Below are positions 4,145 to 33,190 of a stretch of DNA of 64,000 nt, piece by piece; position 1 is the first letter of the stretch; each line of letters starts with the position of its first letter. The position numbers and the translations under genes were made by a program. Below the pieces are notes generated by a model. The model did no database searches. It had not been told where the DNA came from and saw only the letters and a program-made list of their open reading frames with translations. Source of the DNA: Gimesia maris (GTDB taxonomy: Bacteria > Planctomycetota > Planctomycetia > Planctomycetales > Planctomycetaceae); the NCBI RefSeq assembly GCF_008298035.1, contig NZ_CP042910.1, positions 2,867,001-2,931,000 of the forward strand, in the 5' to 3' direction.

Positions 4145-4897
4145 GTGAATCTTGCATTTGTCATGTTGCGTAGTGATGGTTTCATGGAATTAAATTCAGA
4201 GCGGACAATGCGTAAACTGGCGAAAGCAAGGCTGACTGGCGGGGTGATTGCCTGCACTGCGATCTGTGTGACTCTGTTTTTTGCAAAGCTTGCGTTTGAC
4301 TATCAACATACTTTTCGTGGGTGGATTTCAGCACATCCCATGGAGGTTATGCTGGATCTTTCACGACCTGGCACGGTGACCGTGCCTTTTCACCAGACCT
4401 GTAGTGTCTCCCATGGCGAAGGGGTTTTTGTGGATGGGGGGCTTAAAGATGATGGGGAACAAATACCGCAGGCTGAATTGAATGGTCTGTCCGGATCCAT
4501 CGTGATCCAGAATGCAGCTGACGAGGAAATCGTCGCTCGCCATTTTAAAGTCAGCGAAGCGACGCTTTCTGACAGTCCTGGGAATTCAGGTTTGGTGAGC
4601 GGAGGGCAGATGCTCGTAGAAATTCCCACATTCAGTCAGGGTGAATACACGGCAACCATTACAATTGAGAAGGGAGTTGCAGCGCTTAGTGGTCAAACCC
4701 AGAGGCTCTACGCGAAATATCAGTTGTGTGGTTTGGAGCAGATCCCAGTGGTCGTATTGGGTTTTATTTCTTTTTGTGCCGGCGTTGTGGGATTATTCGC
4801 GCTAGTGGCGGTGCTCCCCGGGTTCTTAAGGAGCGGAATCTGGCGGGAGGTTATCAAGGCACCTCCCCCGCCCGAGAGTCAGTCGGAGGAGACCTGA
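4145..4897 (+). CDS. Two-span membrane protein with extracytoplasmic domain, unknown
   Basis: Up to 250 residues. One helix near the N-terminus (GGVIACTAICVTLFFAKLAF, about 32-51), a beta-rich domain of about 150 residues in between and a second helix near the C-terminus (VVVLGFISFCAGVVGLFALVAVL). The tail is proline-rich. The start is unclear: GTG 4145 gives the longest frame, while ATGs at 4163, 4184 and 4208 are all possible and none has a clear ribosome binding site. 4208 has the best match (AGAGCGG). No family recognised. Confidence 0.55.
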   Translation: MNLAFVMLRSDGFMELNSERTMRKLAKARLTGGVIACTAICVTLFFAKLAFDYQHTFRGWISAHPMEVMLDLSRPGTVTVPFHQTCSVSHGEGVFVDGGLKDDGEQIPQAELNGLSGSIVIQNAADEEIVARHFKVSEATLSDSPGNSGLVSGGQMLVEIPTFSQGEYTATITIEKGVAALSGQTQRLYAKYQLCGLEQIPVVVLGFISFCAGVVGLFALVAVLPGFLRSGIWREVIKAPPPPESQSEET

Positions 4898-5029
4898 CCG
4901 CGGCGGAGACGAATCTGAGAATGGAATGAGTGTTGGGTGGCTGTTGCGGTTCAGGATGTGGTGTTAAACTTAATAAGTCAAAGTTACTGATTCATCACCT
5001 GAAAAATGACTTCACTCAGGAGCAATTCA

Positions 5030-5464
5030 ATGTTATTCAGCTCAGATAAACTGCTGGCGATACTGGGGATTGCGGTCGCTTTATCTGCTTATCTGTCGGG
5101 GATTCGATTGTTTTTAATTCAGAAGATTCGTGAGATTCCCAAAGAAGACCCGGAGAAAGCAGAGAAAAAATTCGAGATTCAGAAACAGCTGGGGTGGCTG
5201 ACACTGGCGGATGCTCCCATCGTTTTGTCTGCCTTCCTGCTGGGAGTGAAACTGCTGTGGTACCCCCTCACTGGTATCCCTGCTCCCGACTGGATCCTGT
5301 CACTGGGACTGTGGTTGTTTCTGCTGGCGGGCACCATGATGGTGATTCAGCATTTCCTGGCCTGGCATAAAACGCTGACCGAACTGTTGCCGATTGGGCT
5401 ACTCGTCGTCATCGGCATTCTCATCATGTTTGCGTTGATGATCTGGAAAACATTTTTAATGTGA
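5030..5464 (+). CDS. Four-span membrane protein, unknown
   Basis: 144 residues from the ATG at 5030, chosen over the ATG at 5006 because AGGAG sits 7-11 bases upstream. Hydrophobic segments at about 8-26, 61-80, 92-110 and 120-140 are separated by a charged amphipathic region (EIPKEDPEKAEKKFEIQKQL). No family recognised. Separated by 40 bp from the HEAT-like gene at 5505, with which it may share an mRNA. Confidence 0.55.
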   Translation: MLFSSDKLLAILGIAVALSAYLSGIRLFLIQKIREIPKEDPEKAEKKFEIQKQLGWLTLADAPIVLSAFLLGVKLLWYPLTGIPAPDWILSLGLWLFLLAGTMMVIQHFLAWHKTLTELLPIGLLVVIGILIMFALMIWKTFLM

Positions 5465-5504
5465 ACACAGATCTCTTAAAATCAGTCGAAATCATATCAG
5501 GGGA

Positions 5505-6026
5505 ATGATGGTGGAGATCAGACGTCTGTTAGAGAATCAGCAGAAGTGGACTGTCGAGGAATTACAGTCACTCTATGATCGTATCAGTGGAGAACCGGAG
5601 TTCTGCAACGCATTGGTGAAGCTGTTAGCTGATCCCGAGAGACAGCAGGCCGCCAGTTGGCTGTTGAAACAGGCGCTGGAAACAGGACAGGATGTCACTC
5701 GGATGGATTGGTCGCCTTATTACCGAAGTTTATCGGAACTACAAAACTGGGAAACGCAATTGCATCTACTGCAGTGCCTGCCTTACCTGACGATTGACAC
5801 ACGGGAAGTGAAGCAACTCGAACCATTTTTACGCCGCTGTCTGCAGAGTGAAAATAAATTTGTCAGAGCATGGGGCTATAACGGTTTCAATGAACTGGCA
5901 CTGCAGCATGCTGACTTCAAACCGGAAGTGGATTCTTTACTGGCAGCGGCTCTGGAAGAAGAAGCCCCTTCCGTGAAAGCGCGCATCCGGAATATTTTGA
6001 AACAACGTCTTTCGCATGGCTTTTGA
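5505..6026 (+). CDS. Helical HEAT-like repeat protein
   Basis: 173 residues, almost all predicted alpha helix and soluble. The C-terminal half has two HEAT-like units (FVRAWGYNGFNELALQ and SVKARIRNILKQRL), each with the Arg/Asp-type pattern of HEAT or ARM repeats. The N-terminal half resembles degenerate repeats. Such proteins usually serve as protein-binding scaffolds. Two tandem ATGs occur at 5505 and 5508 after AGGGG. It is followed 12 bp later by a small membrane protein, suggesting an operon. Confidence 0.55.
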   Translation: MMVEIRRLLENQQKWTVEELQSLYDRISGEPEFCNALVKLLADPERQQAASWLLKQALETGQDVTRMDWSPYYRSLSELQNWETQLHLLQCLPYLTIDTREVKQLEPFLRRCLQSENKFVRAWGYNGFNELALQHADFKPEVDSLLAAALEEEAPSVKARIRNILKQRLSHGF

Positions 6027-6038
6027 AGGGAAAATCGT

Positions 6039-6281
6039 ATGGATCTGCAGACTCTGACCGCGTTTTTCATGTGGTGCACGATTGTGAATGGGTCAATCCT
6101 GATTGTGTGGACCCTGATTTTTCTGCTGGCGCCGGAACTGGTGTATCGATCGCAGAATGCCTGGATTCCGCTGCCTCGAGATTCGTTTAATGTGGTAATG
6201 TATTGCTTTATCGGCCTGTTCAAACTGCTGTTTCTGGTGTTTAATGCAGTACCTTATCTGGCTTTGCTGCTGATTACCTGA
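6039..6281 (+). CDS. Small two-span membrane protein (DUF6868-like look)
   Basis: 80 residues starting MDLQTLTAFFMWCTIVNGSI. Two hydrophobic helices lie at about 6-29 and 52-78, with a short loop containing YRSQNAWIPLPRDSFNVVMY. I recall bacterial 80-residue proteins with this 'FFMWCTIINGGLL' opening grouped as DUF6868, but the assignment is from memory. Twelve bp after the HEAT-like gene, with GAAGGGAAAA upstream as ribosome binding site. Function unknown. Confidence 0.6.
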   Translation: MDLQTLTAFFMWCTIVNGSILIVWTLIFLLAPELVYRSQNAWIPLPRDSFNVVMYCFIGLFKLLFLVFNAVPYLALLLIT

Positions 6282-6313
6282 ATCTGAATCAAAAGTGAAA
6301 ATCTTATATTCTT

Positions 6314-6820
6314 ATGACAGAGAAACCACCCTGGGAAAAATCAGGCCCGCTGCCCGGCGAACGGGACTTTGATCCTGATGCAGGAGACCTCGACGCGCAG
6401 GTCGCGTGGAAACACTTTGGTGGCCTGACGCTGTCGGAAGCCTATCAAAGGTTCCAGGAAGATCCGGAAAAGCATACAGAAGATTTCATGTATATGGGGG
6501 GCAAAGCGTTCGCCTATTATTTTCCGGTGCTGGAGCGTTACCTGCTGGTCACACCAGTCTGGCGCGAGGAAAACGGAGTGGAGTGGTGCCAGATTCTGGG
6601 GCTGGGAGCGGCGATTCAATTTCAGTTTACGAAAGAGACTCTACCGGAAGTACGGGAGCTGGTATCCCACGTGTTACAGCTGATTTCGTACGTGAAAGAA
6701 TCGATCAAGGTGCATGTCGCCAGCGGCCATCCCTATATTTCCAATCCGGAAATCCAGCAGCATGTCATCGCAGAATGGGACGCGCTCGAACAGCATCTGC
6801 AGCAGTTAAAGGAGCAGTGA
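6314..6820 (+). CDS. Soluble protein of unknown function
   Basis: 168 residues, no signal peptide or membrane segment. The N-terminus is Pro/Asp-rich, then LTLSEAYQRFQEDPEKHTED and an aromatic-rich helix (GGKAFAYYFPVLERYLL). A long amphipathic C-terminal helix ends in QHLQQLKEQ. The pattern resembles small bacterial proteins predicted to be immunity or SMI1-neighbour proteins, but I cannot name a family. It lies 32 bp after the small membrane protein at 6039 and could end that operon. Confidence 0.5.
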   Translation: MTEKPPWEKSGPLPGERDFDPDAGDLDAQVAWKHFGGLTLSEAYQRFQEDPEKHTEDFMYMGGKAFAYYFPVLERYLLVTPVWREENGVEWCQILGLGAAIQFQFTKETLPEVRELVSHVLQLISYVKESIKVHVASGHPYISNPEIQQHVIAEWDALEQHLQQLKEQ

Positions 6821-6944
6821 GCAGGTATGGCACTGGATGTGGGACTCGAACTGCTGGAAACTGCTGGCATTCGAGAGTCTGTCTCTGTTAAAATTAAAGC
6901 AGCCTTACTTTGTTCTGGTTGTTTCCAACGGGTAACGATCTGAC

Positions 6945-7394
6945 ATGAACCGAAAAAATCAATTCATCATGGCGGGAGTGATTCTGCTGGGAGTGGTCGC
7001 GACGATCTGGGTCGCGTTTTCTAAACCACCCCGCGAGGATATCGTTGTGTTCGCAGCAAAAGAGGGAGATCCCGGTCAGGAGCGTTTCGGTATCTATTAT
7101 TCGTCGGACAAATCAAAACCAGATGCCCCTGCACTGAAAGGGATTCGGCAGAAGATTGTCTTAAAAAACGTCAAAGTTTCCACGAACCTCAAAACTCCCC
7201 GGATTGAATTTTTTCCTCCTCAACCTCAGACCGTTTCGAAGCAGATTAAAACGTTTGCGACTCCTGAAGGCTTAACGCTTGAAGGTTATGGACATAAAAT
7301 TTCTGCCACCGCGCAAAGCGTGCAGGTTGATGGAAAAGACTATGCCTGGGATGAGACGCAGCCGATCATCATTACCGAGTCGCTTGAGAACTGA
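6945..7394 (+). CDS. Membrane-anchored extracytoplasmic protein, paralogue of 7798
   Basis: 149 residues. One N-terminal helix (about residues 8-26, MAGVILLGVVATIWVAF), then a beta-rich extracytoplasmic domain. The C-terminus (VDGKDYAWDETQPIII) matches the C-terminus of the gene at 7798 (VDGKQYDWKDQTPIAL), and both share the helix-plus-beta-domain layout, so the two are diverged tandem paralogues. ACGGGT lies about 14 bases upstream of the ATG. No known domain recognised; role in the envelope is inferred from topology only. Confidence 0.55.
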   Translation: MNRKNQFIMAGVILLGVVATIWVAFSKPPREDIVVFAAKEGDPGQERFGIYYSSDKSKPDAPALKGIRQKIVLKNVKVSTNLKTPRIEFFPPQPQTVSKQIKTFATPEGLTLEGYGHKISATAQSVQVDGKDYAWDETQPIIITESLEN

Positions 7395-7797
7395 TAGAAA
7401 TCTGGTCTGTCAGACTGGCGATGCTGAGAATGAGTGACTCGACCTCTCTCCATTCATTCAGAATTCCCGTTTTCAAAATTGTAAAAAAATCTGAATTGCA
7501 GAAATCTGCAGGAATGCAGCAGAGCCGCGTGCAGATCGTTTCCGATTGTGAAAGATCTTGCACGATTTATGCAGAGGGCTGCAGTCGTGACAAATCAGAT
7601 TCCTGTTTGAGAATTTGATGGATCAAAATTCTGCTTTCCCCCGAATAGGGTATCTCTATAATAATATCCAGGAAGAGCACAACACAGGCCCGGCAATGTT
7701 GCTGCTCTGATATGGTGCACGAACTGGAAAATGGATTTTTCGATTCGCTGGTTCTTTCCTCATTTTTAATCGAGATAAGCCAATTCAAAAACAAATA
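7395..7797. other. Intergenic region between tandem paralogues
   Basis: About 400 bp with no convincing gene. A good -10 box TATAAT is at 7657-7662 on the plus strand but without a clear -35. It may drive the gene at 7798. Short reading frames here have no ribosome binding site and unusual composition. Confidence 0.4.
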
Positions 7798-8211
7798 TTG
7801 AAAAACATTCTGATCTATCTTGGCGCGGGTCTGGTGTGTGTAGGTCTGTTGTTCTGGTCTCTGGAATCATTTAACGCTTCTCAGGGACACTGGGAAGCAG
7901 AAATTGGTCAGGCGGAAACACAACTGGCGCTGACATTGAGACTGGCGGGTCGCGAGGATCGACCTTTCAACCGTCAGATTGTGATTACAGATCGCGAAGC
8001 GGTTACTTACCCGGCGGGAATCTTTTCACTACCCGATCAGGCAGCACAGATGCCGGGCAACAGACAGACCTTCCAGGATACGACGATCCGTCCGGGGCGT
8101 GTGACCTTTCAATGGGAAGGTCACGAATTCGACCTGATGCTGAATGGTCTGAGAGTGGACGGGAAACAGTATGACTGGAAAGATCAGACGCCGATTGCGC
8201 TGGTGCGTTGA
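7798..8211 (+). CDS. Membrane-anchored extracytoplasmic protein, paralogue of 6945
   Basis: 137 residues from a TTG start (LKNILIYLGAG read with Met). The N-terminal helix at about 4-22 is followed by a beta-rich domain ending VDGKQYDWKDQTPIALVR. It resembles the 6945 product in layout and in this C-terminal motif. There is no better ATG upstream in frame, and the membrane segment would be lost with a downstream start, which supports the TTG. Function unknown. Confidence 0.5.
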   Translation: MKNILIYLGAGLVCVGLLFWSLESFNASQGHWEAEIGQAETQLALTLRLAGREDRPFNRQIVITDREAVTYPAGIFSLPDQAAQMPGNRQTFQDTTIRPGRVTFQWEGHEFDLMLNGLRVDGKQYDWKDQTPIALVR

Positions 8212-8269
8212 GTCAAAGCGATTTGTCAAAGCGGAGCAGGCATTTCAGGAATTCTCTGAATTTAAGTGC

Positions 8270-8299
8270 TTGACCTGAGTGTGAGTGAATTGGTATAAA
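8270..8299 (+). promoter_or_regulatory. Promoter of the macro-domain gene
   Basis: TTGACC (8270-8275), an 18 bp spacer and TATAAA (8294-8299). Transcription would begin near 8306, which excludes the longer reading-frame start at 8285 and favours the ATG at 8336. Confidence 0.6.
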
Positions 8300-8335
8300 A
8301 CCTGTCTAGCATTCAGAAAGGTGCCCTGCTCTTTT

Positions 8336-8965
8336 ATGGCTCTGCCCATTGATCTCTGGTTGATTCATCCCGAATCAGAAATGTGTGATGCATTTCAAAC
8401 ACGTTTTGAAAGTCTCCCTCGTGTAACGGTCATCGAAAGCCGTTTTGAAGACCTCCCCCCGCACGACTGTTTTGTGACCGCCGCGAATGCCTTCGGGATT
8501 ATGAATGCGGGCATCGATGCCGCCGTGATCCACTTTCATGGCGTCGAACTGATGCAGCGGATTCAGCATCGCATCCTGGATGAGTATCTGGGCGAGCAGC
8601 CGATCGGCACTTCTTTAATCGAGCCTACCGGCAATTCGGATTATCCTTATGTGGCCCACAGTCCGACGATGCGTGTACCCGGTTCGATTTCCGGAACCGA
8701 CAAAGTGTATGCGGCGACCTGGGCTTCGCTGCTGGCCGTGTATCAGCACAACGTGCGACAGACGGATGAAAGGCAGAAGATTAACTCGGTCGTATTTCCC
8801 GCGATGGGAGCCGGCTTCGGGAATGTGCCTTACAAAGAGGTGGCCCGCCAGATGGCGGTCGCTTACGCGCATTATCTGAGTCCACCTCACCGGATGAACT
8901 GGGATACGGTGATTGGCCGCCAGAAAGCGATTGCCTACGACGAGGGGAAACTGGTGGTCCGTTGA
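8336..8965 (+). CDS. Macro-domain protein (ADP-ribose binding/processing)
   Basis: 209 residues. It has the macro-fold order: an N-terminal strand (PIDLWLIHPE), a strand-loop with FVTAANAFGIMNAGIDAAV that corresponds to the ADP-ribose-contacting 'NAAN..L..GGGVA' region, and a C-terminal VVFPAMGAGFGNVPYKEVAR corresponding to the 'FPAIGTGIYGFP' phosphate loop. Known macro proteins bind or hydrolyse ADP-ribose derivatives. Here the glycine loop is diverged (MNAGID in place of GGGVD), so catalytic activity is uncertain. Cytoplasmic, monocistronic with its own promoter. Start supported by promoter position and the AGAAAGG about 15 bases upstream. Confidence 0.75.
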   Translation: MALPIDLWLIHPESEMCDAFQTRFESLPRVTVIESRFEDLPPHDCFVTAANAFGIMNAGIDAAVIHFHGVELMQRIQHRILDEYLGEQPIGTSLIEPTGNSDYPYVAHSPTMRVPGSISGTDKVYAATWASLLAVYQHNVRQTDERQKINSVVFPAMGAGFGNVPYKEVARQMAVAYAHYLSPPHRMNWDTVIGRQKAIAYDEGKLVVR

Positions 8966-8975
8966 AATCTATTTG

Positions 8976-8984
8976 TGCTATAAT
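8976..8984 (+). promoter_or_regulatory. Extended -10 promoter element
   Basis: TGCTATAAT, an extended -10 (TGnTATAAT), 42 bp upstream of the ATG at 9026. The nearby TTGAAA (8962-8967) is too close to serve as -35, so an extended -10 promoter is likely. Confidence 0.5.
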
Positions 8985-21004: not shown

Positions 21005-21958
21005 TTAGTAGTCAGCGCCTAATGTTTCCCGTTTGGCTCTGGTGCTGAGGGCCCGGTACAGGGTCATGTCGATGTTCTCGGAGAGAAATTTCACTCTGCC
21101 GTCACCAAACACGAAGTGGGCACCACCGGTGTGATAGCTGCCGGCGGCTTCTTCGCCGTAGGAGTTGATCGGGTCGTTGCTCTCCGCAGCGATCAGGTAT
21201 TCCGTCATTTCAGTAGGCGGGTTGCTGTCGGCTCCGTTAGAGAAGCAGTGCTTGCGGTCGCTGCCACCACCACCCAGCATGTCGGCATCTCCGCCCGAGT
21301 CAATCACTTCGCTGACGAAGATGGTATTGGAGAGGCCATCGGTGACATCGCGGAAGGCGACGCTACTGCTGATATAGAAGACGCCGTCGCCGCCCATGCA
21401 GCCACCTGTTGCAGCCATGCCGGCGGCAGTGGTAATACCACCACTATAGCAATCGTCTCCCGAGCTGCCGATCAGCGTGCCCATGTTGCCATTGTAATTG
21501 GAAGGAGAGTATCCGTTCTTCTGGACTCCCTTGGTCACATCAGGCTGGGAAGGACACCAGAAGACGGACAGGACTGTCTGCCCGGCCAGTTGTTGCTTGG
21601 GATCATTGACCCCGCCGGATTCGGCCCCCATCCCGCTGGAATCTGGTCCCTGAATGGCATCGTACAGGTTGGCCTGATCGAGATAAGGCAGCAAACTGGC
21701 ATGCCAGGTCCAGCCATGACCATTATAAGTATCACCGGCAGCGTTGAGCAGCACAATACTCCCTGGTGGCAGCGAGCTGAAGGCTTCATGATAATTGTGG
21801 ATCGCCAGACCGATCTGCTTAATGTTGTTTTTGCATGTGTTGCGACGGGCAGCTTCTCGTGCCTGCTGGACCGCAGGCAACAGCAGGGCAATCAGAATCG
21901 CAATAATTGCGATGACCACCAGTAACTCAATCAAAGTGAACCCTCTTCGATTTTTCAT
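21005..21958 (-). CDS. DUF1559 protein, near-duplicate of 24393
   Basis: 317 residues. Opens [20 protein letters not shown] and closes with [20 protein letters not shown]. It is very similar along its whole length to the product of 24393-25340 (315 residues); both contain the rare stretches [20 protein letters not shown] and [18 protein letters not shown] (or close variants). The similarity extends into the upstream DNA, showing a segmental duplication. Exported pseudopilin-like protein by family knowledge. Confidence 0.87.
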
Positions 21959-24392: not shown

Positions 24393-25340
24393 TTAAAAAT
24401 CAGGTCCCAGCGTTTCCCGCTTGGCCCTGGTGCTGATGGCCCTGTAGAGGGTCATGTCCATGTTTTCGGAGAGAAAGCGAACGCGGCCATCGCCGAACAC
24501 GAACTGCGCACCACCGGTGTGATAGCTGCCGGCTGCTTCTTCTGCATAGCCGTTGATCGGGTCGTTACTTTCAGCGGCGATCAGGTATTCGCTCATCTCT
24601 GTCGGCGGGTTGCTGTCGGCGCCGCCTGAGAAACAGTGCTTGCGGTCACTGCCGCCACCACCCAGTCGATCGGCGTCTCCCCCCGAGTCAATCACTTCAC
24701 TGACGAAGATGGTGTTGGAGAGACCGTCAGTGACATCACGGAACGCGACGCTACTGCTGATGAAGAAGATACCGTCAGCGCCCATACATCCACCCTTGGC
24801 AGCCATCTGGGCGGGCGTGGTAATCGAGCCGCCGTAGCAGTTATCTCCTGAGTTACCGATGAGCGTACCCATGTTGCCATTATAGTTGGAGGGAGAGTAT
24901 CCCCCTTTTTGTACGCCGGTGGTCACATCGGGTTGTGAAGGGCACCAGAAGACGGAGAGCACGGTCTGACCTGCCAACTGCTGTTTGGCGCTGGTGGTAC
25001 TTCCTGATTCGGCGCCCATGCCACTGGAGTCAGGACCCTGGATCTGGTCATACATATTCGCCTGGTCGAGATAAGGCAGGATGCTGGCGTGCCAGGTCCA
25101 GCCATGACCGTAGTATTTGGTACCGTTGTAGTAAACAATGCTGCCCGAGGGCAGAGATTTGAAACTGGAGTGGTAGTTGTGTAATGCCAGCCCGATCTGT
25201 TTCAGGTTGTTTTTACAGCTGTTGCGGCGAGCGGCTTCCCGGGCCTGCTGGACCGCCGGTAAGAGCAGTGCAATCAGGATCGCAATAATGGCGATCACGA
25301 CCAATAGTTCAATTAATGTGAATCCTTTTCGATTCTTCAT
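24393..25340 (-). CDS. DUF1559 protein, near-duplicate of 21005
   Basis: 315 residues. Opens [20 protein letters not shown] with [20 protein letters not shown], closes [20 protein letters not shown]. It is collinear with the 21005 product throughout, with most changes conservative. GGGGGAG lies about 7 bases before the ATG. The paralogue pair is separated by cREC, VOC, AraC-remnant and small basic genes, so the duplication was followed by insertion or was not strictly tandem. Confidence 0.87.
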
Positions 25341-25952: not shown

Positions 25953-28610
25953 TCAGGTTCTGGCTTGGATCTGACTGACGATGGTCGGGTCTTTGATTTT
26001 AGTATCGTCTGCCAGCAGAAAGGCTTTGCTGAGAATGATCGACAGCATCTTATCCCCTTCAAATGGTAGGAACAGGTTGTTCGTGCTTTTATCGGCCATC
26101 GACTGATTGGGGACGATGCAGAGATAAGCGTCGTGAGGCGACATCAGAATGTTCCCGCTCCCCAGGTGGATTTTGTAGGTGTGCAGTGTTCCCTGGACGA
26201 GCAGAAATTTCTCTTTGAAGGAACACTGGCTGGCGATTTTGAGTCGCGGGACGAGTCGCTGCAGGATCTCTTTACGGGTCTGGGCGGTCTCAGTCAGCTC
26301 GCCGAATGAGTAGCTTTGCCAGTAATCGACGTAACGTCCTTCCGGTCCGCCGTCGGACCAGGTGGGATCATTGGCGACGGAAGCGACGCCGACAAACAGG
26401 TCAACATCGCGCATCAGTTCGCTGAAAACCAGTGGCGGGATCTCTTCCAGGTTGATCGGATTGTCGTTCCCCTGCTCTCCCCAGGTGCCATAACCGCCTC
26501 CACCGGCGTGGGACACCCGCGCGGCTGCTTCCAGTGGATAAAAGCGGACCTGGTCCGTCGCGAGATAGAGGTATGTCCCCGCATCATTGGTGTCGACTCC
26601 GTAATTGTCGCCGATCCCTTCCACCCAGAATTCCGCCCGCAGGTTCCATTTGGGGAGCAGTTTTCTGGCCGGGAGATAGAAGTCATCGACCATCAGCCGC
26701 AACTGGTTTTTCCAGCCCCGGGCACCGCAGAGGGCATTGAACTGGTGCTGTTTGATGATATGAGCCGCATAGCGGTTGGAATAGATGCCTGTATTCCGTT
26801 CCGCGTCGGTCAGCAGGTAGACTTCCCGGTGTGCCTGTTTGAAGGGCTGCTGAATTTTGTGTTCTTCCAGCCAGTCGCGCCAGGCAATGATCTCCTCGGT
26901 CGCATGTTCAATCGGGTGCCAGAGTGTGACGGTTGTGGTGGCAGTCAGGTTTTCTATGGGGGTGCTGCTGCGATCAACCAGTTGACCGTCGAGCCAGATG
27001 CCGTCGACGACGTCGTCACCTGATTTGAAACTCCAGATGATCCGCCGGGCCAGCGTGCCGACCAGGGGGTGATCGAGATACCGTTCTTTCCAGATCTCGA
27101 ACGGCCAGACTTTCTGTTCCAGGAACAGGTTGTCGATGCGTTCGCGCTGGGCGGGGAGCATCTTCTGGATGTCCCTGGCACCCGCTTTGAGTTCTTTCAG
27201 CTCCTCGGGGAAGTCTTTCTTGACGGCTGCGGGAACCGATTTTTGCGGTTTACCGTCTGCTTTGAGCCATGTGAGTTGCGTCGTTGTAGTGCCGGTGATG
27301 GTGAGCTGGGCGGTGAAGTCGCCTAATGGCTCTTCGAGCTGGCCGACCTCTGTCAGACCGTAAGCGGGCACGCCCATTTCTTCGATCTCTTCCCGGGGCA
27401 CCTGCATGCGTTCGGCGGTTTCGTTGAGTGCTTTTTCGATCCCCTTCTGGGCGGTGCCGAACTTGACCTTCACCTTCAGGAATGCCAGTTGACCGAGCGC
27501 CGTCTCATTGGAAATCTGTCCCAACGCCCAGACACAGGCGTTGCCCACCTTAATGGCGCGGGGACCGACGCCGGGAACTTTCTTGTAGGTGGAAATCGCC
27601 AGTGCAGCCAGAGCGCGAGCCAGTCGAGGATCATCGGTCAGGCTGCAGCACCAGGCGAGGCCTTTGAGGGTATCGGTGTGAATGTCGATGAGCATCATAT
27701 TCGGGTCGGGACCCCAGCGGCGGGGATTCAAAGACTGTGTGCGGGGCTTGTCGACCAGGGGGAACCACTCCAGCAGAGTGTTGGTGAATTGTTCTTCGCC
27801 GATCTCGCCAACCAGGGGTGTGGCTGTCTTCACCCATTTAGCGGAGGGCTTGCCGGCCGAAGCGGTCTGGCAGTGCGAGAGTAAGGCCCCCCACGCATTT
27901 TGCAAAGGGCCGGGCATCTCTGCACTGTCGGCCAGGGCTCTGTCCGACCAGGCTTCCCCCGCTTTGAGCGGAAACCGGGTATGATTGTCACTGAGAGCCT
28001 GCAGTGTTCTGATGAGCGGGAAGACTTCCTCGTCCTTTAATTTGAGCAGAGCTTCTGCCAGTCCGGACAGTGATTGTTTGAGCTGGTGGTCTGGCTGTTC
28101 TTCGGATTTATCCAGATAACCTTTGATGCGCTTGACGAACGCTTTTATGTGAGGATGACTCCACTCGTCGTGGGCCCTGGTGCAGGCACAGCAATCTGCC
28201 AGCCAGGCATATTCGGGCATGGTGAAGGGGAGATTGCGACTGATCAGCCGGGCTGCAACGTGGACAGGCACTTTAGAATACTCAGGTCTCTGCTCTGGCA
28301 GTGAATCATAAATTTGTTGGAAGTTCTCGGGCCAGATGTTGTTGTAGCGGTCGTCGTAGCCCAGATACCTCAGACCGAACGCCAGAAAGATAAAATCACG
28401 CTGGACGTCTTTCTGCTCTGCCATGATCTCTTCCACGCAGGAGAGACTGGCAATTTCTGAGAAGTCGCAGACCTCTTTGTTTTCTGTGGCGATCAGTAAC
28501 TTTCGATAGAGTTCATCAGCGCGGGAAGAGTATTGCATGGGTGTACTGTCAGTTCCGGGGTGAGGGGCAGCGGGTGAACGGTCGGTCGAGCGAGTGTAGC
28601 GATCAGCCAC
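25953..28610 (-). CDS. DUF4132-like large cytoplasmic protein
   Basis: 885 residues, soluble. The N-terminal ~450 residues are helical and repeat-like (HEAT/ARM-like). The C-terminal half has the DUF4132 hallmarks QQPFKQAHREVYLLTDAE, YSNRYAAHIIKQHQFNAL, GWKNQLRL, a PLEAAARVS strand, PPLVFSELMRDVDLFVGVAS, and YKIHLGSGNILM near the end. DUF4132 occurs in E. coli YehI/MolR, whose biochemical activity is unknown. The GTG start at 28610 lies inside the end of the upstream gene (8 bp overlap), implying translational coupling. ATG 28538 (MQYSSRADELY) is an alternative. The upstream partner is the Gly-Gly-ending protein. Confidence 0.7.
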   Translation of the reverse strand: MADRYTRSTDRSPAAPHPGTDSTPMQYSSRADELYRKLLIATENKEVCDFSEIASLSCVEEIMAEQKDVQRDFIFLAFGLRYLGYDDRYNNIWPENFQQIYDSLPEQRPEYSKVPVHVAARLISRNLPFTMPEYAWLADCCACTRAHDEWSHPHIKAFVKRIKGYLDKSEEQPDHQLKQSLSGLAEALLKLKDEEVFPLIRTLQALSDNHTRFPLKAGEAWSDRALADSAEMPGPLQNAWGALLSHCQTASAGKPSAKWVKTATPLVGEIGEEQFTNTLLEWFPLVDKPRTQSLNPRRWGPDPNMMLIDIHTDTLKGLAWCCSLTDDPRLARALAALAISTYKKVPGVGPRAIKVGNACVWALGQISNETALGQLAFLKVKVKFGTAQKGIEKALNETAERMQVPREEIEEMGVPAYGLTEVGQLEEPLGDFTAQLTITGTTTTQLTWLKADGKPQKSVPAAVKKDFPEELKELKAGARDIQKMLPAQRERIDNLFLEQKVWPFEIWKERYLDHPLVGTLARRIIWSFKSGDDVVDGIWLDGQLVDRSSTPIENLTATTTVTLWHPIEHATEEIIAWRDWLEEHKIQQPFKQAHREVYLLTDAERNTGIYSNRYAAHIIKQHQFNALCGARGWKNQLRLMVDDFYLPARKLLPKWNLRAEFWVEGIGDNYGVDTNDAGTYLYLATDQVRFYPLEAAARVSHAGGGGYGTWGEQGNDNPINLEEIPPLVFSELMRDVDLFVGVASVANDPTWSDGGPEGRYVDYWQSYSFGELTETAQTRKEILQRLVPRLKIASQCSFKEKFLLVQGTLHTYKIHLGSGNILMSPHDAYLCIVPNQSMADKSTNNLFLPFEGDKMLSIILSKAFLLADDTKIKDPTIVSQIQART

Positions 28611-29001
28611 CCACGAGCAGCGTCAGCTTCAGGAACGACACTTCCGATTGCGGCGTGATCTTGATCTCTTCGTCCAATGATTCGGCCTGCCGCTCGTTCA
28701 CCAGAATCAGGATCTGGTTCCGTTCGAAGGCTTCGACGGCTTTAGCGAACTGCTCGTGCCAGTCGATCTCGCGACTTTTTTTCAGCTTGAAGCCATTGAG
28801 GGTTTCTTCGGTATCCGTGGGCTGGATCAGTCCCCGGAAATGCTCAGTCTGCTTTGCGTTAAAATCTTTGACTTCCTGGTAGACGCGGCTGCGGATCAGT
28901 TCGCGTACGGTGATGTTTTCCGTCAGGAATTCGAGCGTGATTTCGCCGGTAATTTTCCCGGCCATGGTTTCATCACGAATGGTCAAAGTGGTCGCAGACA
29001 T
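28603..29001 (-). CDS. Ubiquitin-like beta-grasp candidate ending in Gly-Gly
   Basis: 132 residues. Predicted order is strand (TTLTIRD), strand (GEITLEFLTENITV), helix (RELIRSRVYQEVKDF), an insertion of about 45 residues with another helix, strand (QILILVNERQ), then SLDEEIKITPQSEVSF and a last strand LKLTLLVGG-stop. Order, spacing of the last two strands and the exact C-terminal Gly-Gly resemble ubiquitin/ThiS/MoaD proteins. That is my reading of the sequence, not a known family. It is the first gene of an operon with the DUF4132 gene, overlapping it by 8 bp. AAGGGAACC precedes the ATG. Alternative: an unrelated small DUF4132 partner whose Gly-Gly end is coincidental. Confidence 0.6.
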   Translation of the reverse strand: MSATTLTIRDETMAGKITGEITLEFLTENITVRELIRSRVYQEVKDFNAKQTEHFRGLIQPTDTEETLNGFKLKKSREIDWHEQFAKAVEAFERNQILILVNERQAESLDEEIKITPQSEVSFLKLTLLVGG

Positions 29002-29127: not shown

Positions 29128-29965
29128 TACCACGAAAAGTACGAAATGACACGAACGTTTCTGACCGCTGAGATCACAAACCCGGGGTGGTCCCGGATGT
29201 CATCCGGGACGAGCGAAGCGAGCAGGAGGTCTCAACTGCCGGTGACGAATGTTTCGGGAAAAGAGCAATCGGTCTGCAGGAGAGAATCAGGTCAGTCGTT
29301 TCTTAATCTCTCGATTTCTCTGTTACCTCCTGTTGCCTGCGGCAACCTCGAATTCCATTCGAGGCCACCCGGAGAGAATTGACAGGTTCTCTTTTTTCTA
29401 CCACGAAAAATTCGAAATGACACGAAAGTATCTGACCGGTGAAATTACAAACCCGGGGTGGTCCCGGATGCAATCCGGGACGAGCGGAGCGAGCAGGAGG
29501 TCTCAGCTGCCGGTGACGAACGTTGTGGGATGAGAGCGATCTGCCTGCGGAAGCAAGTCAGGTCAGTTGTTTCTCAGTTGATTGATTTCCCTGCGACCTC
29601 CTGTTGCCTGCGGCAACCTCGAATTACATTCGAGGCCACCCGGAGAGAATTGACAGGTTCTCTATTTCTACCACGAAAAGTACGAAAAGACACGAAAGTA
29701 TCTGACCGGTGAGATCACAAACCCGGGGTGGTCCCGGATGTAATCCGGGACGAGCAGAGCGAGCAGGAGGTCCCAGTTGCCGGTGACGAACGTTGTGGGA
29801 AACGAGGAATTAGCTTGCGGGAGAGAATCAGGTAAGTGGTTTCTTAATCTCTCGATTTCTCTGTTACCTCCTGTTGTCTGCGACAACCTCGAATTCCATT
29901 CGAGGCCACCCAGGGAGAATAGACAGGTTCTCTTTTTTTCTACCTCGAAAGTCACGAAAAACACG
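29128..29965. repeat. Repeat array A: three ~271 bp tandem units plus start of a fourth
   Basis: Units begin TACCACGAAA at 29128, 29399 and 29669 (spacings 271, 270) and a diverged start TACCTCGAAA at 29941 (272). Each unit contains three hairpins in fixed order: GTCCCGGAT-nnn-ATCCGGGAC, GTTGyC-tgc-GrCAAC and CCTCGAAT-nnn-ATTCGAGG. These are separated by conserved text such as CGGTGACGAACG. Reading frames inside the units are by-products of the repetition. The fourth unit breaks off after about 25 bp, where the membrane gene's upstream region begins. Confidence 0.85.
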
Positions 29966-30112
29966 AAAACTGACAGTAGCGAAATGGACGTGTTGATGAT
30001 GGATTTTCATTTGTCTGCAAGACTGATTGGAAACAATCGTGTGCATCGTCTAATCTGGAGATCGCCTCGCCAGTTGCTCAAATTGAAGCTGCTTTCATTC
30101 AGGGAGTTCATT

Positions 30113-30352
30113 GTGGAAGTCCGTCGTAAACGGGAACTCTATTCCATCGGCAGTATGATTCTGCTGTTGATTGTCTGGCTGCTGGTGTGGTCGATTCAGT
30201 TTGAATTGATCTATCCGCAACTCCCCTTCTGGTCGCGCTGGGTTACCGGCGATCCCCTGGATGTTCTCTGGTACTGCGTGGGAGCTGCGATCAGTTCACT
30301 CTGGTGGTGGTTTTATTATCAGAGACGGCTGGCAACACAGGCTGCTGGCTGA
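30113..30352 (+). CDS. Small two-span membrane protein between repeat arrays
   Basis: 79 residues from a GTG at 30113 with AGGGAG 6-11 bases upstream; the frame is open further upstream (ATG at 29983) but that part shows no protein-like character. It has two hydrophobic helices, about 16-37 (MILLLIVWLLVWSIQFELIY) and 53-70 (LWYCVGAAISSLWWWFYY), and a basic start (EVRRKRELYS). No family recognised. It is the first gene in the 2.4 kb segment enclosed by the two repeat arrays. Confidence 0.5.
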   Translation: MEVRRKRELYSIGSMILLLIVWLLVWSIQFELIYPQLPFWSRWVTGDPLDVLWYCVGAAISSLWWWFYYQRRLATQAAG

Positions 30353-30403
30353 TGCAGAACGACTGTTTTTTCAGCGAGTAGATGCTGTTTGACTATACAG
30401 GTG

Positions 30404-30433
30404 TTGCATGCGGGGGCATGCTGGCGTTAATAT
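30404..30433 (+). promoter_or_regulatory. Promoter of tandem paralogous exported proteins
   Basis: TTGCAT (30404-30409), 18 bp spacer, TAATAT (30428-30433). The spacer holds the inverted repeat GCATGC (30406-30411) - gggg - GCATGC (30416-30421), a possible operator. The leader to the ATG at 30496 is about 55 nt. Confidence 0.5.
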
Positions 30434-30495
30434 AGTGAATCAGCGCTGACACATTCCTAGAAGACCTGATACAGACAGTTACGAGGACAAATCCC

Positions 30496-31419
30496 ATGAC
30501 CGGCATGATTTCCAAAGCGAGACAAACAGTAATCCTATGGGGAATTCTGCTCGTCTGCGGAACGGCAACCGTGCAGGCGGCGGAACCGATCTGTGTCTGG
30601 GAAGTGGTCACCACGTATCGCACTTATCTGGATGACGGGCGGATGACGCTGATGTCAGACGGAAAGTCTGACAAGGGACTCTCCTGGACGATTATTCGTG
30701 ATTCCGTTGACTTCGGTAGAGAAGGCAAAGCCGTGCGGCGTGCAGACGGAACATTTTTCAAAGGGAACTGGATTGGCGGCTGGCACCTGAATGCCCGCGT
30801 CATCATGAATAACGCCATCATCAAGTCGGAATATGTTGCTCCCGAAACCATGCCTAAGGATGCGGGCGAAAGTCTGATCGGCACAAAACCGGCGCCGGGT
30901 CTGCAGGATTCGATTGTCGACCTGTGGGAGTTTGTTGCGATACTGCCGGGGACAAACAGATTTATCAGGCTGACCTGTGACTTCACGCCGAACAAACTGG
31001 TATTGGACGGCGATCGGAAGATCGGGACGTATGAATTTCAGAAATCAGCGGTGGTGGTCAACTTCATCGACCCGCAATTTGGTCGCATCGTGTTTGCAGA
31101 GAAACCCGACAACGTCCTTTCGGGCAAAGGGAAAGCGGTGAACCGCAAACGCTGGGAACTGCAGTTTACCCGCGTGCAGCGACAGGCCGTCTATAAGACT
31201 GCCGACAATAAGGACTTTATTCTCTACACCAACCATCGTGTGAATTCGCCGCGTTATACGCCGGACTACTATACGACGTTTAACTGGTATTTCTACACAG
31301 AGGGAGGGACACGACGACTCGCGTGCCAAAGCGGCGACGCCACGCTTTCCGCCGGCGGACGGGAGCTCACCTGGTCGGGCCAGAAGATGATCCTGATTGC
31401 AGGCGTCCCGCCTCGATAA
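30496..31419 (+). CDS. Exported protein, tandem paralogue 1
   Basis: 307 residues. Signal peptide (QTVILWGILLVCGTATVQAA, cleavage near AAE). The mature protein is beta-rich with VCVWEVVTTYR-like opening (here ICVWEVVTTYRTYLDDGRMT), a central RLTCDFTPNKLVLDGDRKIG and EFQKSAVVVNFIDPQFG. The paralogue downstream has the same length; the two starts are exactly 1000 bp apart and most of the sequence is shared. Ribosome binding site GAGGAC. No known fold recognised; a lipocalin-like or TIGR03067-like barrel is conceivable. Envelope location follows from the signal peptide. Confidence 0.65.
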   Translation: MTGMISKARQTVILWGILLVCGTATVQAAEPICVWEVVTTYRTYLDDGRMTLMSDGKSDKGLSWTIIRDSVDFGREGKAVRRADGTFFKGNWIGGWHLNARVIMNNAIIKSEYVAPETMPKDAGESLIGTKPAPGLQDSIVDLWEFVAILPGTNRFIRLTCDFTPNKLVLDGDRKIGTYEFQKSAVVVNFIDPQFGRIVFAEKPDNVLSGKGKAVNRKRWELQFTRVQRQAVYKTADNKDFILYTNHRVNSPRYTPDYYTTFNWYFYTEGGTRRLACQSGDATLSAGGRELTWSGQKMILIAGVPPR

Positions 31420-31495
31420 GAAACCGGAGACGCGCCTCTCCGGATTGAAATCCCAGACTCAAAACCTGTATCAGACTACAAAGAGAACCGAACCA

Positions 31496-32419
31496 ATGAC
31501 CGGCATGATTTCCAGAGCAAGACAGACGTGTATCCTATGGGGAATTCTGCTCGTCTGTGGAACGGCAACTGAGCAGGCGGCGGAACCGGTCTGTGTGTGG
31601 GAAGTGGTTACCACGTATCGCAAGCACCTGACTGACGGGCGTCTCACGCTGATGTCGGATGGCAAGACGGATAAGGGACTCCCCTGGACTCTGATCCGCG
31701 ATACCGTCGATTTCGGCCAGGAGGGCAAAGCCGATCCGCGTGCGGGCGGCGCGTTTTATAAAGGGAACTGGGTCGGCGGCTGGAACATTGATGCACGCGT
31801 CATCATGAATAACGCCACGCTCAAGACGGAAATCGTCGCGCCGGAAACGATGCCCAAGGAAGCCGGGGAAAGTATGATTGGTACCAAACCCGCGCCTGGC
31901 CTGCAGGATTCGATTGTCGATGTCTGGGAGTTCGTGGCGATCCTGCCGGGAACGAACAGTTTCATCAGGCTGACCTGCGACTTCACACCCAACAAACTGG
32001 TGATGGACGGCGACCGTAAAATCGGTACGTACGAATTTCAGAAGTCGGCGGTGGTGGTGAACTTCGTCGACCCGCAGTTTGGCAGCGTTGTGTTTGCAGA
32101 GAAGCCGGACAACGTGCTTTCGGGAAAAGGGAAAGCGGTGAACCGCAAACGCTGGGACCTGCAGTTTACCCGCGTGCAGCGACTGGCCATCTATCGCTCC
32201 CAGGATAATAAGGATCTGGTGCTGTATACGAATAATCGTGCGCATGCCCCGCGTTACACACCTCATTACCAGACGACCTTTAACTGGTATTTTACCCAGG
32301 TCGGGAGACAGAAGAAGCTGATGATTCGCGGTCTGGAAGCAAAACAGTCCGCCGGCGGTCGCAAGCTGACCTGGTACAAAGAAGACTTGGTCCTCATCGC
32401 CGGCGTCCCGCTCAGGTAA
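31496..32419 (+). CDS. Exported protein, tandem paralogue 2
   Basis: 307 residues, start set at 31496 because the sequence from MTGMISRARQ aligns with the start of paralogue 1; the frame continues upstream to 31397 but that stretch has no counterpart. Signal peptide ILWGILLVCGTATEQAA. The N-terminal and central parts are nearly identical to paralogue 1; the C-terminal ~60 residues are more diverged (RQKKLMIRGLEAKQSAGGRK versus TRRLACQSGDATLSAGGREL). Between the genes lies a 7 bp hairpin CCGGAGA/TCTCCGG (31424-31443). Function unknown. Confidence 0.62.
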   Translation: MTGMISRARQTCILWGILLVCGTATEQAAEPVCVWEVVTTYRKHLTDGRLTLMSDGKTDKGLPWTLIRDTVDFGQEGKADPRAGGAFYKGNWVGGWNIDARVIMNNATLKTEIVAPETMPKEAGESMIGTKPAPGLQDSIVDVWEFVAILPGTNSFIRLTCDFTPNKLVMDGDRKIGTYEFQKSAVVVNFVDPQFGSVVFAEKPDNVLSGKGKAVNRKRWDLQFTRVQRLAIYRSQDNKDLVLYTNNRAHAPRYTPHYQTTFNWYFTQVGRQKKLMIRGLEAKQSAGGRKLTWYKEDLVLIAGVPLR

Positions 32420-32429
32420 CATCGCAATG

Positions 32430-33190
32430 GTTCCCCACCCGGCGAAAATTGTCAGGTACTCTTTTTTCTACCACGAACAGCACGAAATGACACGAACGTT
32501 TCTGACTGGTGAGATCACAAACCAGGGGTGGTCGCGGATGTAATCCGGGACGAGCGGAGCGAGCAGGAGGTCTCAGCTGCCGGTGACGAACGTTTCGGGA
32601 AAAGAGCAATCGGTCTGCGGAAGCAAGTCAGGTCAGTTGTTTCTCAGTTGATCGATTTCTCTGTTACCTCCTGTTGTCTGCGACAACCTCGAATTTCATT
32701 CGAGGCCACCCAGGGAGAAATAGACAGGTTCTCTTTTTTCTACCACGAAAAATTCGAAATGACACGAACGTTTCTGACTGGTGAGATCACAAACCAGGGG
32801 TGATCCCGGATGTAATCCGGGACGAGCGAAGCGAGCAGGAGGTCTCAGCTGCCGGTGACGAACGTTTTGGGGAGAGAGCGATCTGCCTGCAGAAGCAAGT
32901 CAGCTCAGTCGATTCTCAGTTGATCGATTCCCCTGCGACCTCCTGTTGCCTGCGGCAACCTCGAATTACATTCGAGGCCACCCGGAGAAAATTGTCAGGT
33001 ACTCTTTTTTCTAGCACGAACAGCACGAAATGACACGAACGTTTCTAACCGGTGAGGTCAGAAACCAGGGGTGGTCGCGGATGTAATCCGGGACGAGCGG
33101 AGCGAGCAGGAGGTCTCAGCTGCCGGTGACGAACGTTTTGGGGAGAGAGGCATCTTCCTGCAGGAGTCGTCAGCTCAATCAAGACGTTGT
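32430..33190. repeat. Repeat array B: tail of one unit, two full units and a truncated third
   Basis: Begins with the tail of a unit (ACCCGGCGAAAATTGTCAGGT near 32436), then units starting at 32469 and 32741 (272) and 33012 (271). The last breaks off near 33190 after GACGAACG and CTGCAGGAG. Same three hairpins as array A; here stem 1 often has one mismatch (GTCGCGGAT) and stem 2 shows GTTGTC/GACAAC or GTTGCC/GGCAAC pairs. Together with array A it encloses the segment 29966-32430. Confidence 0.85.

Follow-up and report, generated by a model that had tools for sequence, protein, structure and literature searches.

The stretch analysed here (the window) comprises 64,000 nucleotides (nt) of the Gimesia maris genome (contig NZ_CP042910.1, positions 2,867,001 to 2,931,000) and carries, adjacent and in the same direction on the minus strand, the genes for a small ubiquitin-like (Ubl) protein and for a DUF4132 protein, hereafter the partner. 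The original prediction of an open reading frame (ORF) of 132 amino acids (aa) ending in LKLTLLVGG directly before the stop codon, next to a DUF4132 gene, was confirmed from the sequence and by Pfam: the partner passes the cut-off of PF13569 (DUF4132; 175.3 bits vs 27) and matches PF24879 (DUF7737; 143.7 bits) at its C-terminus. A WGR domain had no Pfam match in the partner. The features of the pair are the following:

28603..29001, minus strand: Ubl protein, predicted beta-grasp, 132 aa, C-terminal LVGG (ORF, homologues, AlphaFold2 pLDDT 85, Foldseek)
28606..28611, minus strand: codons GGT GGC of Gly131-Gly132 (sequence; kept in 74/79 relatives, 15 codon pairs used)
28603-28605, minus strand: Ubl stop codon, immediately 3' of GGT GGC
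25953..28610, minus strand: DUF4132-DUF7737 partner, 885 aa counted from GTG (Pfam, conservation of Met25, AlphaFold2)
25968..26285, minus strand: DUF7737 domain, residues 776-881 in GTG numbering (Pfam)
26118..26120, minus strand: Cys831 codon, within YLCIVP (covaries with the Ubl Gly-Gly; position computed from the 28610 start)

The two genes overlap, by 8 nt, only if the partner starts at its GTG. Since residues 1-24 counted from this GTG are unconserved and predicted to be disordered (alignment, AlphaFold2), Met25 is nearly invariant, and the first ATG, GTG or TTG of the partner frame falls on the Met25 position in four genus relatives (loci L015, L016, L017, L023), the partner probably starts at the ATG at 28538, 64 nt past the Ubl stop. 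In two further genus relatives (L014, L022) a GTG or TTG exists upstream of this position. Joint translation through a DUF4132 start inside the end of the Ubl gene, as first proposed, is doubtful, the conserved start lying beyond the overlap; in Deinococcus radiodurans the annotated genes are separated by 2 nt. The AlphaFold2 model of the partner (pLDDT 81) is helical in its N-terminal part and mixed alpha/beta in the remainder. Foldseek with this model gave nothing at E 0.001; the matches listed were mostly helical-repeat proteins, and neither MoaE nor ThiG was among the 50 listed. The DUF4132 core carries many invariant polar residues in the alignment.

The Ubl was found in 11 of the 40 relatives' genomes searched (own genome included) and at 55 loci of the species collection and, because it is kept in this way, the ORF is, on the evidence of its sequence, a real gene. 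It also occurred in 19 of 392 genomes sampled across the phylum (own genome counted), and its family has members in eight phyla (Planctomycetota, Cyanobacteriota, Chloroflexota, Actinomycetota, Acidobacteriota, Deinococcota, Bacteroidota and Pseudomonadota), assigned from record titles and taxonomy with plasmid-collection records added, several members being metagenome bins. Removed before counting were 14 duplicate records, L053 (contig edge) and L075 (3' part lost); L095, a divergent Ubl ending in VAGG, was excluded from the alignments and from the set of 79 sequences. None of the 49 and 83 pattern stretches found in viral contigs was a relative, the phage records searched with the Bacteroides partner gave no match, and a PHROGs search gave nothing useful for the Ubl.

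The AlphaFold2 model of the Ubl, built on 70 aligned sequences (pLDDT 85, pTM 0.80), has the order strand, strand, helix, insert (hairpin plus helix), strand, strand, strand, which is that of a beta-grasp; residues 129-132 form a low-confidence tail predicted to be disordered. The 50 Foldseek matches listed (E 0.01-0.055) include MOCS2A (5mpo_A, probability 1.00), MoaD (1fm0_D, 0.98) and Urm1 (1wgk, 0.95), these three at E 0.01-0.02; NEDD8, SUMO, ubiquitin and SAMP1; but also staphylococcal superantigen-type proteins, transcobalamin and others. These superantigens contain a beta-grasp domain. In hhalign, the last 37 residues of the family profile aligned with five proteins of the genome that resemble MoaD and ThiS (probability 65.6%, E 5.8e-5); besides the Ubl, the genome encodes five proteins above the ThiS cut-off, every one ending in Gly-Gly. 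A ThiS match at E ≤1 was obtained for 8 of 70 Ubl members (best 0.0067), and sequence searches against solved structures gave weak, chance-like rows only. The ubiquitin-like fold put forward earlier is backed by the model, by Foldseek and by the profile match of the C-terminal end, and as a predicted structure it is largely supported: structure prediction returned a beta-grasp and not another fold, and in the model MoaD and Urm1 appear at least as near as ubiquitin.

The Ubl C-terminus is exactly Gly-Gly in 74 of the 79 relatives (duplicates removed). The others end in VAG (L011), LSG (L091), LAGA (L093 and L096, two pairs within one genome) and LSGRLW (L194, Bacteroides finegoldii, with residues past the Gly-Gly position). 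A terminal Gly-Gly thus holds for the family in general, the homologues that lack it (four) or extend beyond it (L194) being confined to these five exceptions. The ending is not due to chance; a rough base rate is given by neighbouring ORFs of ≥150 aa, mechanically called and not verified as genes, of which 5 of 444 end in Gly-Gly. The table of 73 loci shows every Gly-Gly codon pair but one (15 of 16) and all three stop codons in use; the DUF4132 gene lies downstream of the Ubl in 60, upstream in 7 and was not seen within the fetched stretch in 6. That the motif is an accident of gene overlap was rejected, because it is kept in 6 of the 7 Ubls with an upstream DUF4132 gene and in four whose partner lies elsewhere in the genome (L027, L054, L056, L073), and its codons vary.

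In 67 of 73 loci the Ubl has a DUF4132 gene as its neighbour. Five genomes of Ubl loci lacking a local partner, plus the L075 genome, were searched: a full-length partner was found elsewhere for L027, L054, L056 and L073, and there was no DUF4132 in the 94%-complete genome of L011 (G027, Ubl ending in VAG) and likewise none in that of L075. In the genus, the identical 8 of 17 genomes hold both Ubl and DUF4132 (p 4e-5). Among the 392 genomes, counting DUF7737 matches over the cut-off, 18 hold both Ubl and DUF7737, 1 the Ubl only, 4 DUF7737 only and 369 neither (p 3e-26, relatedness of the genomes not corrected for). Two of the DUF7737-only genomes carry a 57-aa fragment (G320) or a contig ending 69 nt upstream of the gene (G073); in the other two (G246, G348) no Ubl was found near the gene. 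G102 has a DUF7737 match under the cut-off and no Ubl. The DUF4132 profile matched in 33 of the 392 genomes, 12 of them without DUF7737 and without Ubl; the Ubl tracks the DUF4132 subtype bearing a C-terminal DUF7737. The long partners of Deinococcus and Bacteroides are DUF5724-DUF4132-DUF7737 proteins, and complete DUF4132 partners in the distant Ubl group measure 1,620-1,733 aa (L114, L117, L118, L119, L181, L182), that of L116 965 aa. The open-access literature searched, a body that mostly excludes subscription papers and preprints, held nothing linking DUF4132 to a Ubl; in the parts of the DUF4132 literature available, no activity is shown and one paper proposes a role in molybdopterin biosynthesis.

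Some loci show other arrangements: a single Ubl followed by two tandem DUF4132 genes (L038, 8004-13583) and a single Ubl flanked on both sides by DUF4132 genes (L026, 668-5439). The genome's second DUF4132 protein (L113, G000:C1:4214001-4228000, 6754-7674; 306 aa) is encoded in a row with 1690-aa and 408-aa genes, and no Ubl was found in that stretch.

Within DUF7737, all 62 partners of Gly-Gly Ubls have Cys831, and none of the 4 partners of Ubls without Gly-Gly (L091, L093, L096, L194) does; these carry F, F, F and A instead. In the DUF4132 core and DUF7737, 40 columns are conserved in ≥90% of the 62 Gly-Gly partners and in all 9 divergent ones; of these, Cys831 alone was lost in all four non-Gly-Gly partners, and 34 were unchanged in all four; among 60 columns invariant in the 9 divergent Gly-Gly partners (109 without L116), again Cys831 alone differs in all four. 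The count left out 8 of 74 rows in which the Ubl was absent or unseen or the region was missing: L175, L197 and L199 (neither Cys831 nor Ubl), L176 (no Cys831; Ubl unseen, contig edge), L062 (ends short of the Cys831 region), and L188, L198 and L200, which are discussed below. Close relatives are counted among the 62 Gly-Gly partners, as are three partners unlinked to their Ubl (L178, L179, L180) and the tandem pair of L038. The column was first spotted by eye with three of the four non-Gly-Gly pairs visible; the Bacteroides pair was discovered afterwards and fitted the pattern. A tree of 40 of the 74 rows, hand-picked to thin the main subfamily and computed with the columns around Cys831 excluded (trait count 37), implies 3 changes of each trait, Cys831 and Gly-Gly, coinciding. 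The earlier suggestion that DUF4132 itself might provide the activity gains support from this covariation and from the tight pairing.

Genes for conjugation enzymes were searched for around the pairs. As the original prediction had it, no E1 gene was found nearby: five ThiF-family queries from the own genome (E 0.01) had no match in 80 flanking regions (1.10 Mb, some overlapping), and the positive control regions matched. A single JAB protease query gave no match near the pair at E 0.01, its control recovering only itself. ThiF-family proteins are encoded in 17 of 17 genus genomes (G002 has only two), one type, which we take to be MoeB-like, in 17/17 and the other in 16/17, regardless of the presence of the Ubl. 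A dedicated E1 in the genus was rejected, since these types occur with or without the Ubl and G002 has just the two. Prok-JAB, found in 7 of 17 genus genomes (3/8 with the Ubl, 4/9 without), does not follow the Ubl either. Because no ThiF relative flanks the pair while all 17 genomes hold ThiF-family proteins, activation of the Ubl, if any, would be shared. Besides Ubl and DUF4132, no gene cluster recurs in more than 7 of 60 loci; cluster C2, a reverse-strand shadow frame of the Ubl gene, was excluded as a neighbour. Ten members of recurrent clusters were scanned (ABC, DUF1559 pilin-like, TPR, nitroreductase, WD40, kinase, FGE-sulfatase, ankyrin; one without match), and none was a known cofactor or thiolation enzyme. 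PADLOC gave no match for either window protein, and a known defence system is not supported.

Other loci of the same genome carry ThiF-family genes or domains. L123 (G000:C1:4170001-4184000, 4772-7621) combines a 107-aa small protein, a weak Prok-JAB match that stays under the cut-off (18.4 bits) and a ThiF-family gene, and resembles common bacterial operons for Ubl conjugation; L122 (G000:C1:1800001-1815000, 7242-8978) encodes a 578-aa protein with Prok-JAB followed by a ThiF domain; and in L186, before G000:C1:3291611, a ThiS-like protein ending in ISGG lies directly 5' of a ThiF-family gene, another Ubl/E1 pair.

Three features identify the pair of D. radiodurans (L190) as drA0165-drA0166: it follows a thioredoxin gene, its partner is a DUF4132 protein, and the sequence of the radiation/desiccation response motif (RDRM) is identical. 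DR_A0165 (SEP068184) is a member of the Ubl family (A2 profile, E 2e-23) and adjoins a DUF5724-DUF4132-DUF7737 protein. According to the available portions of PMC8533742, drA0165 has an RDRM at -83 and forms a putative operon with drA0166, both genes are strongly upregulated upon DdrO depletion, and mitomycin C raises DRA0166-V5 in the wild type and not in the irrE mutant. An RDRM-like motif was present upstream of the Ubl in 4/4 Deinococcus plasmids examined, with one mismatch in three (including L190, 3332-3346) and two in D. ficus. In shuffles of the whole locus such a motif arose in 34/200 for L190 at three mismatches (not rare) and in 5, 5 and 1/200 for L191, L192 and L193 at two (rare). 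The accessible text of PMC9650054 states that drA0165 has no RDRM, in conflict with PMC8533742 and with the motif found here. DNA-damage control of the pair in Deinococcus has the literature and the motif as its basis; what is new here is the identification of the D. radiodurans pair as drA0165-drA0166 and the covariation of Cys831 with Gly-Gly.

The same portions of PMC9650054 describe DRA0165 as Deinococcus-only and MoaD-like, binding the thioredoxin Trx1, with structural neighbours including 5MPO, 3PO0 and 1WGK, and report that cells deleted for drA0165 survive peroxide better and have more catalase activity and a higher total antioxidant capacity. The window Ubl shares this list of fold neighbours. 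No discussion of the Gly-Gly tail was found in those portions, and no DRA0165 adducts are reported there; a search for papers containing the term DUF4132 did not return PMC9650054.

The simplest reading, which joins the gene pair, the predicted fold, the free Gly-Gly, the co-occurrence with DUF7737, the covariation and the DNA-damage control in Deinococcus, is that the Ubl acts as a carrier of the MoaD/Urm1 kind whose C-terminus is activated and then transferred to Cys831 of a dedicated partner; we favour it tentatively, at somewhat less than an even chance. Under this reading Ubl and DUF4132-DUF7737 would form a two-gene, stress-linked module, in which the Ubl would be a beta-grasp carrier resembling MoaD and Urm1, its Gly-Gly tail left free. 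This tail would probably be adenylated, and may be converted to a thiocarboxylate, by an E1-like enzyme of the ThiF family whose gene lies at another place in the genome. The activated tail would pass to Cys831 of the partner's DUF7737, as a thioester, an acyl-disulfide or by sulfur transfer, and the partner would then use the activated Ubl on some target. We infer three parts of this explanation: activation by a shared E1, the covalent bond to Cys831, and the target.

Several observations weigh against the transfer to Cys831. No conjugation enzyme was found beside the pair with the ThiF queries and the one JAB query (E2 profiles were not run). Foldseek with the Ubl gave no match reaching E 0.001, and the window Ubl stays below the Pfam ThiS cut-off (12.9 vs 22.5 bits). 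The covariation amounts to 3 changes and cannot reach significance, because only 2 independent contrasts fall on supported branches (sign test p 0.5). L188, L198 and L200 keep Cys831 with no Ubl found beside them, and genome G095 (L095) encodes the divergent VAGG Ubl and has no DUF7737 or DUF4132 match (DUF4132 at E 1e-10). In the accessible part of PMC9650054, 157 proteins co-purify with N- and C-terminally tagged DRA0165 alike, so that these contacts need no free tail. Finally, 5 of 79 Ubls lack Gly-Gly and, since four of them adjoin long partners whose other conserved columns are intact, some function does not need the tail.

These last points favour a non-covalent subunit, in which the Ubl would be structural or regulatory and its Gly-Gly would thread a narrow channel near Cys831 without ever being activated; the missing ThiF relative, the apparently intact pairs without Gly-Gly (L091, L093, L096, L194) and the contacts persisting with C-terminal tags (PMC9650054, in part) all agree with it. 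We nevertheless consider it rather unlikely: Gly-Gly is exactly terminal in 74/79, as in C-terminally activated proteins, it is a cysteine that covaries with this ending, and none of the remaining conserved columns disappears together with Gly-Gly. Unlikely, too, is a protein modifier attached to proteins under stress, the partner being E2/E3-like or following an E2-independent, Urm1-like route. The terminal Gly-Gly with a candidate catalytic cysteine in the partner, the resemblance of the partner's helical N-terminal part to helical-repeat proteins and the link to DNA damage and oxidative stress speak for it, against the lack of adducts in the available portions of PMC9650054 and of a JAB relative nearby with one query. 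A classical sulfur carrier, whose thiocarboxylate would donate sulfur, with Cys831 as relay, to an RNA or a small molecule that the partner makes, is the least probable and quite doubtful in spite of the MoaD and Urm1 fold matches, the MoaD/ThiS-like C-terminal profile and the invariant polar residues of the DUF4132 core, as no cluster recurs in more than 7/60 loci, the scanned members are not cofactor or thiolation enzymes, and MoaE and ThiG are missing from the partner's 50 Foldseek matches listed. The modifier and sulfur-carrier explanations overlap with the transfer to Cys831, and the confidences do not sum to one.

Extending the transfer to Cys831, it is possible, with considerable doubt, that the pair represents an E2-less bacterial Ubl pathway: a DNA-damage-induced Ubl would receive shared E1-like activation and form a thioester or acyl-disulfide with Cys831, DUF4132-DUF7737 proteins, spread over at least eight phyla, would constitute a new class of Ubl transferases, and lineages without Gly-Gly would have given up the cysteine as well, retaining a non-covalent form. 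The analysis ties one DUF4132 subtype, that with DUF7737, to a ubiquitin-like protein of its own and points to a single cysteine and a pair of glycines as the groups likely to react; with the pair assigned to the DNA-damage regulon of Deinococcus, the candidate pathway becomes testable in a tractable laboratory organism. If the tail is covalently used, this would be a new bacterial route of Ubl transfer without E2.

Elsewhere in the window, 21005-21958 and 24393-25340 encode two similar proteins with pilin-like N-termini, and 29249-32803 contains repeated stretches whose translations share RDERSEQEVSAAGDER, surrounding a pair of similar proteins (at 30496 and 31397).

Compared with known systems, the Ubl resembles MoaD/ThiS (PF02597) in its predicted beta-grasp, terminal Gly-Gly, small size and C-terminal profile match, and differs by an insert of ~45 residues that separates helix 1 from strand 3, by a score under the Pfam cut-off and by its partner, DUF4132-DUF7737; MoaD serves MoaE and ThiS serves ThiG as sulfur donors. 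Bacterial E1-E2-JAB systems share a Ubl with terminal Gly-Gly, but these operons (type II CBASS, Bil and similar) carry an E1 plus other enzymes, whereas the Ubl pair has no ThiF relative in the 80 flanking regions. The comparison with E. coli YehI/MolR made at the outset held in part: DUF4132 matched in the E. coli control genome, but DUF7737 was unmatched in 14/14 control genomes, E. coli included. MolR has a WGR domain (PMC8533742, available portions), and the window partner, with DUF7737 present and WGR unmatched, falls outside the MolR/YehI subtype. Urm1 and the archaeal SAMPs are alike in fold match and in the link to oxidative stress; Urm1 differs from the Ubl pair, which has no E1 gene beside it, and the likeness is one of predicted fold, the mechanism being drawn by analogy only. 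Urm1 is adenylated, converted to a thiocarboxylate and forms an acyl-disulfide with a target cysteine without E2 (PMC12954526, in the portion available), and by analogy this would be the closest chemistry to the route proposed for the Ubl.

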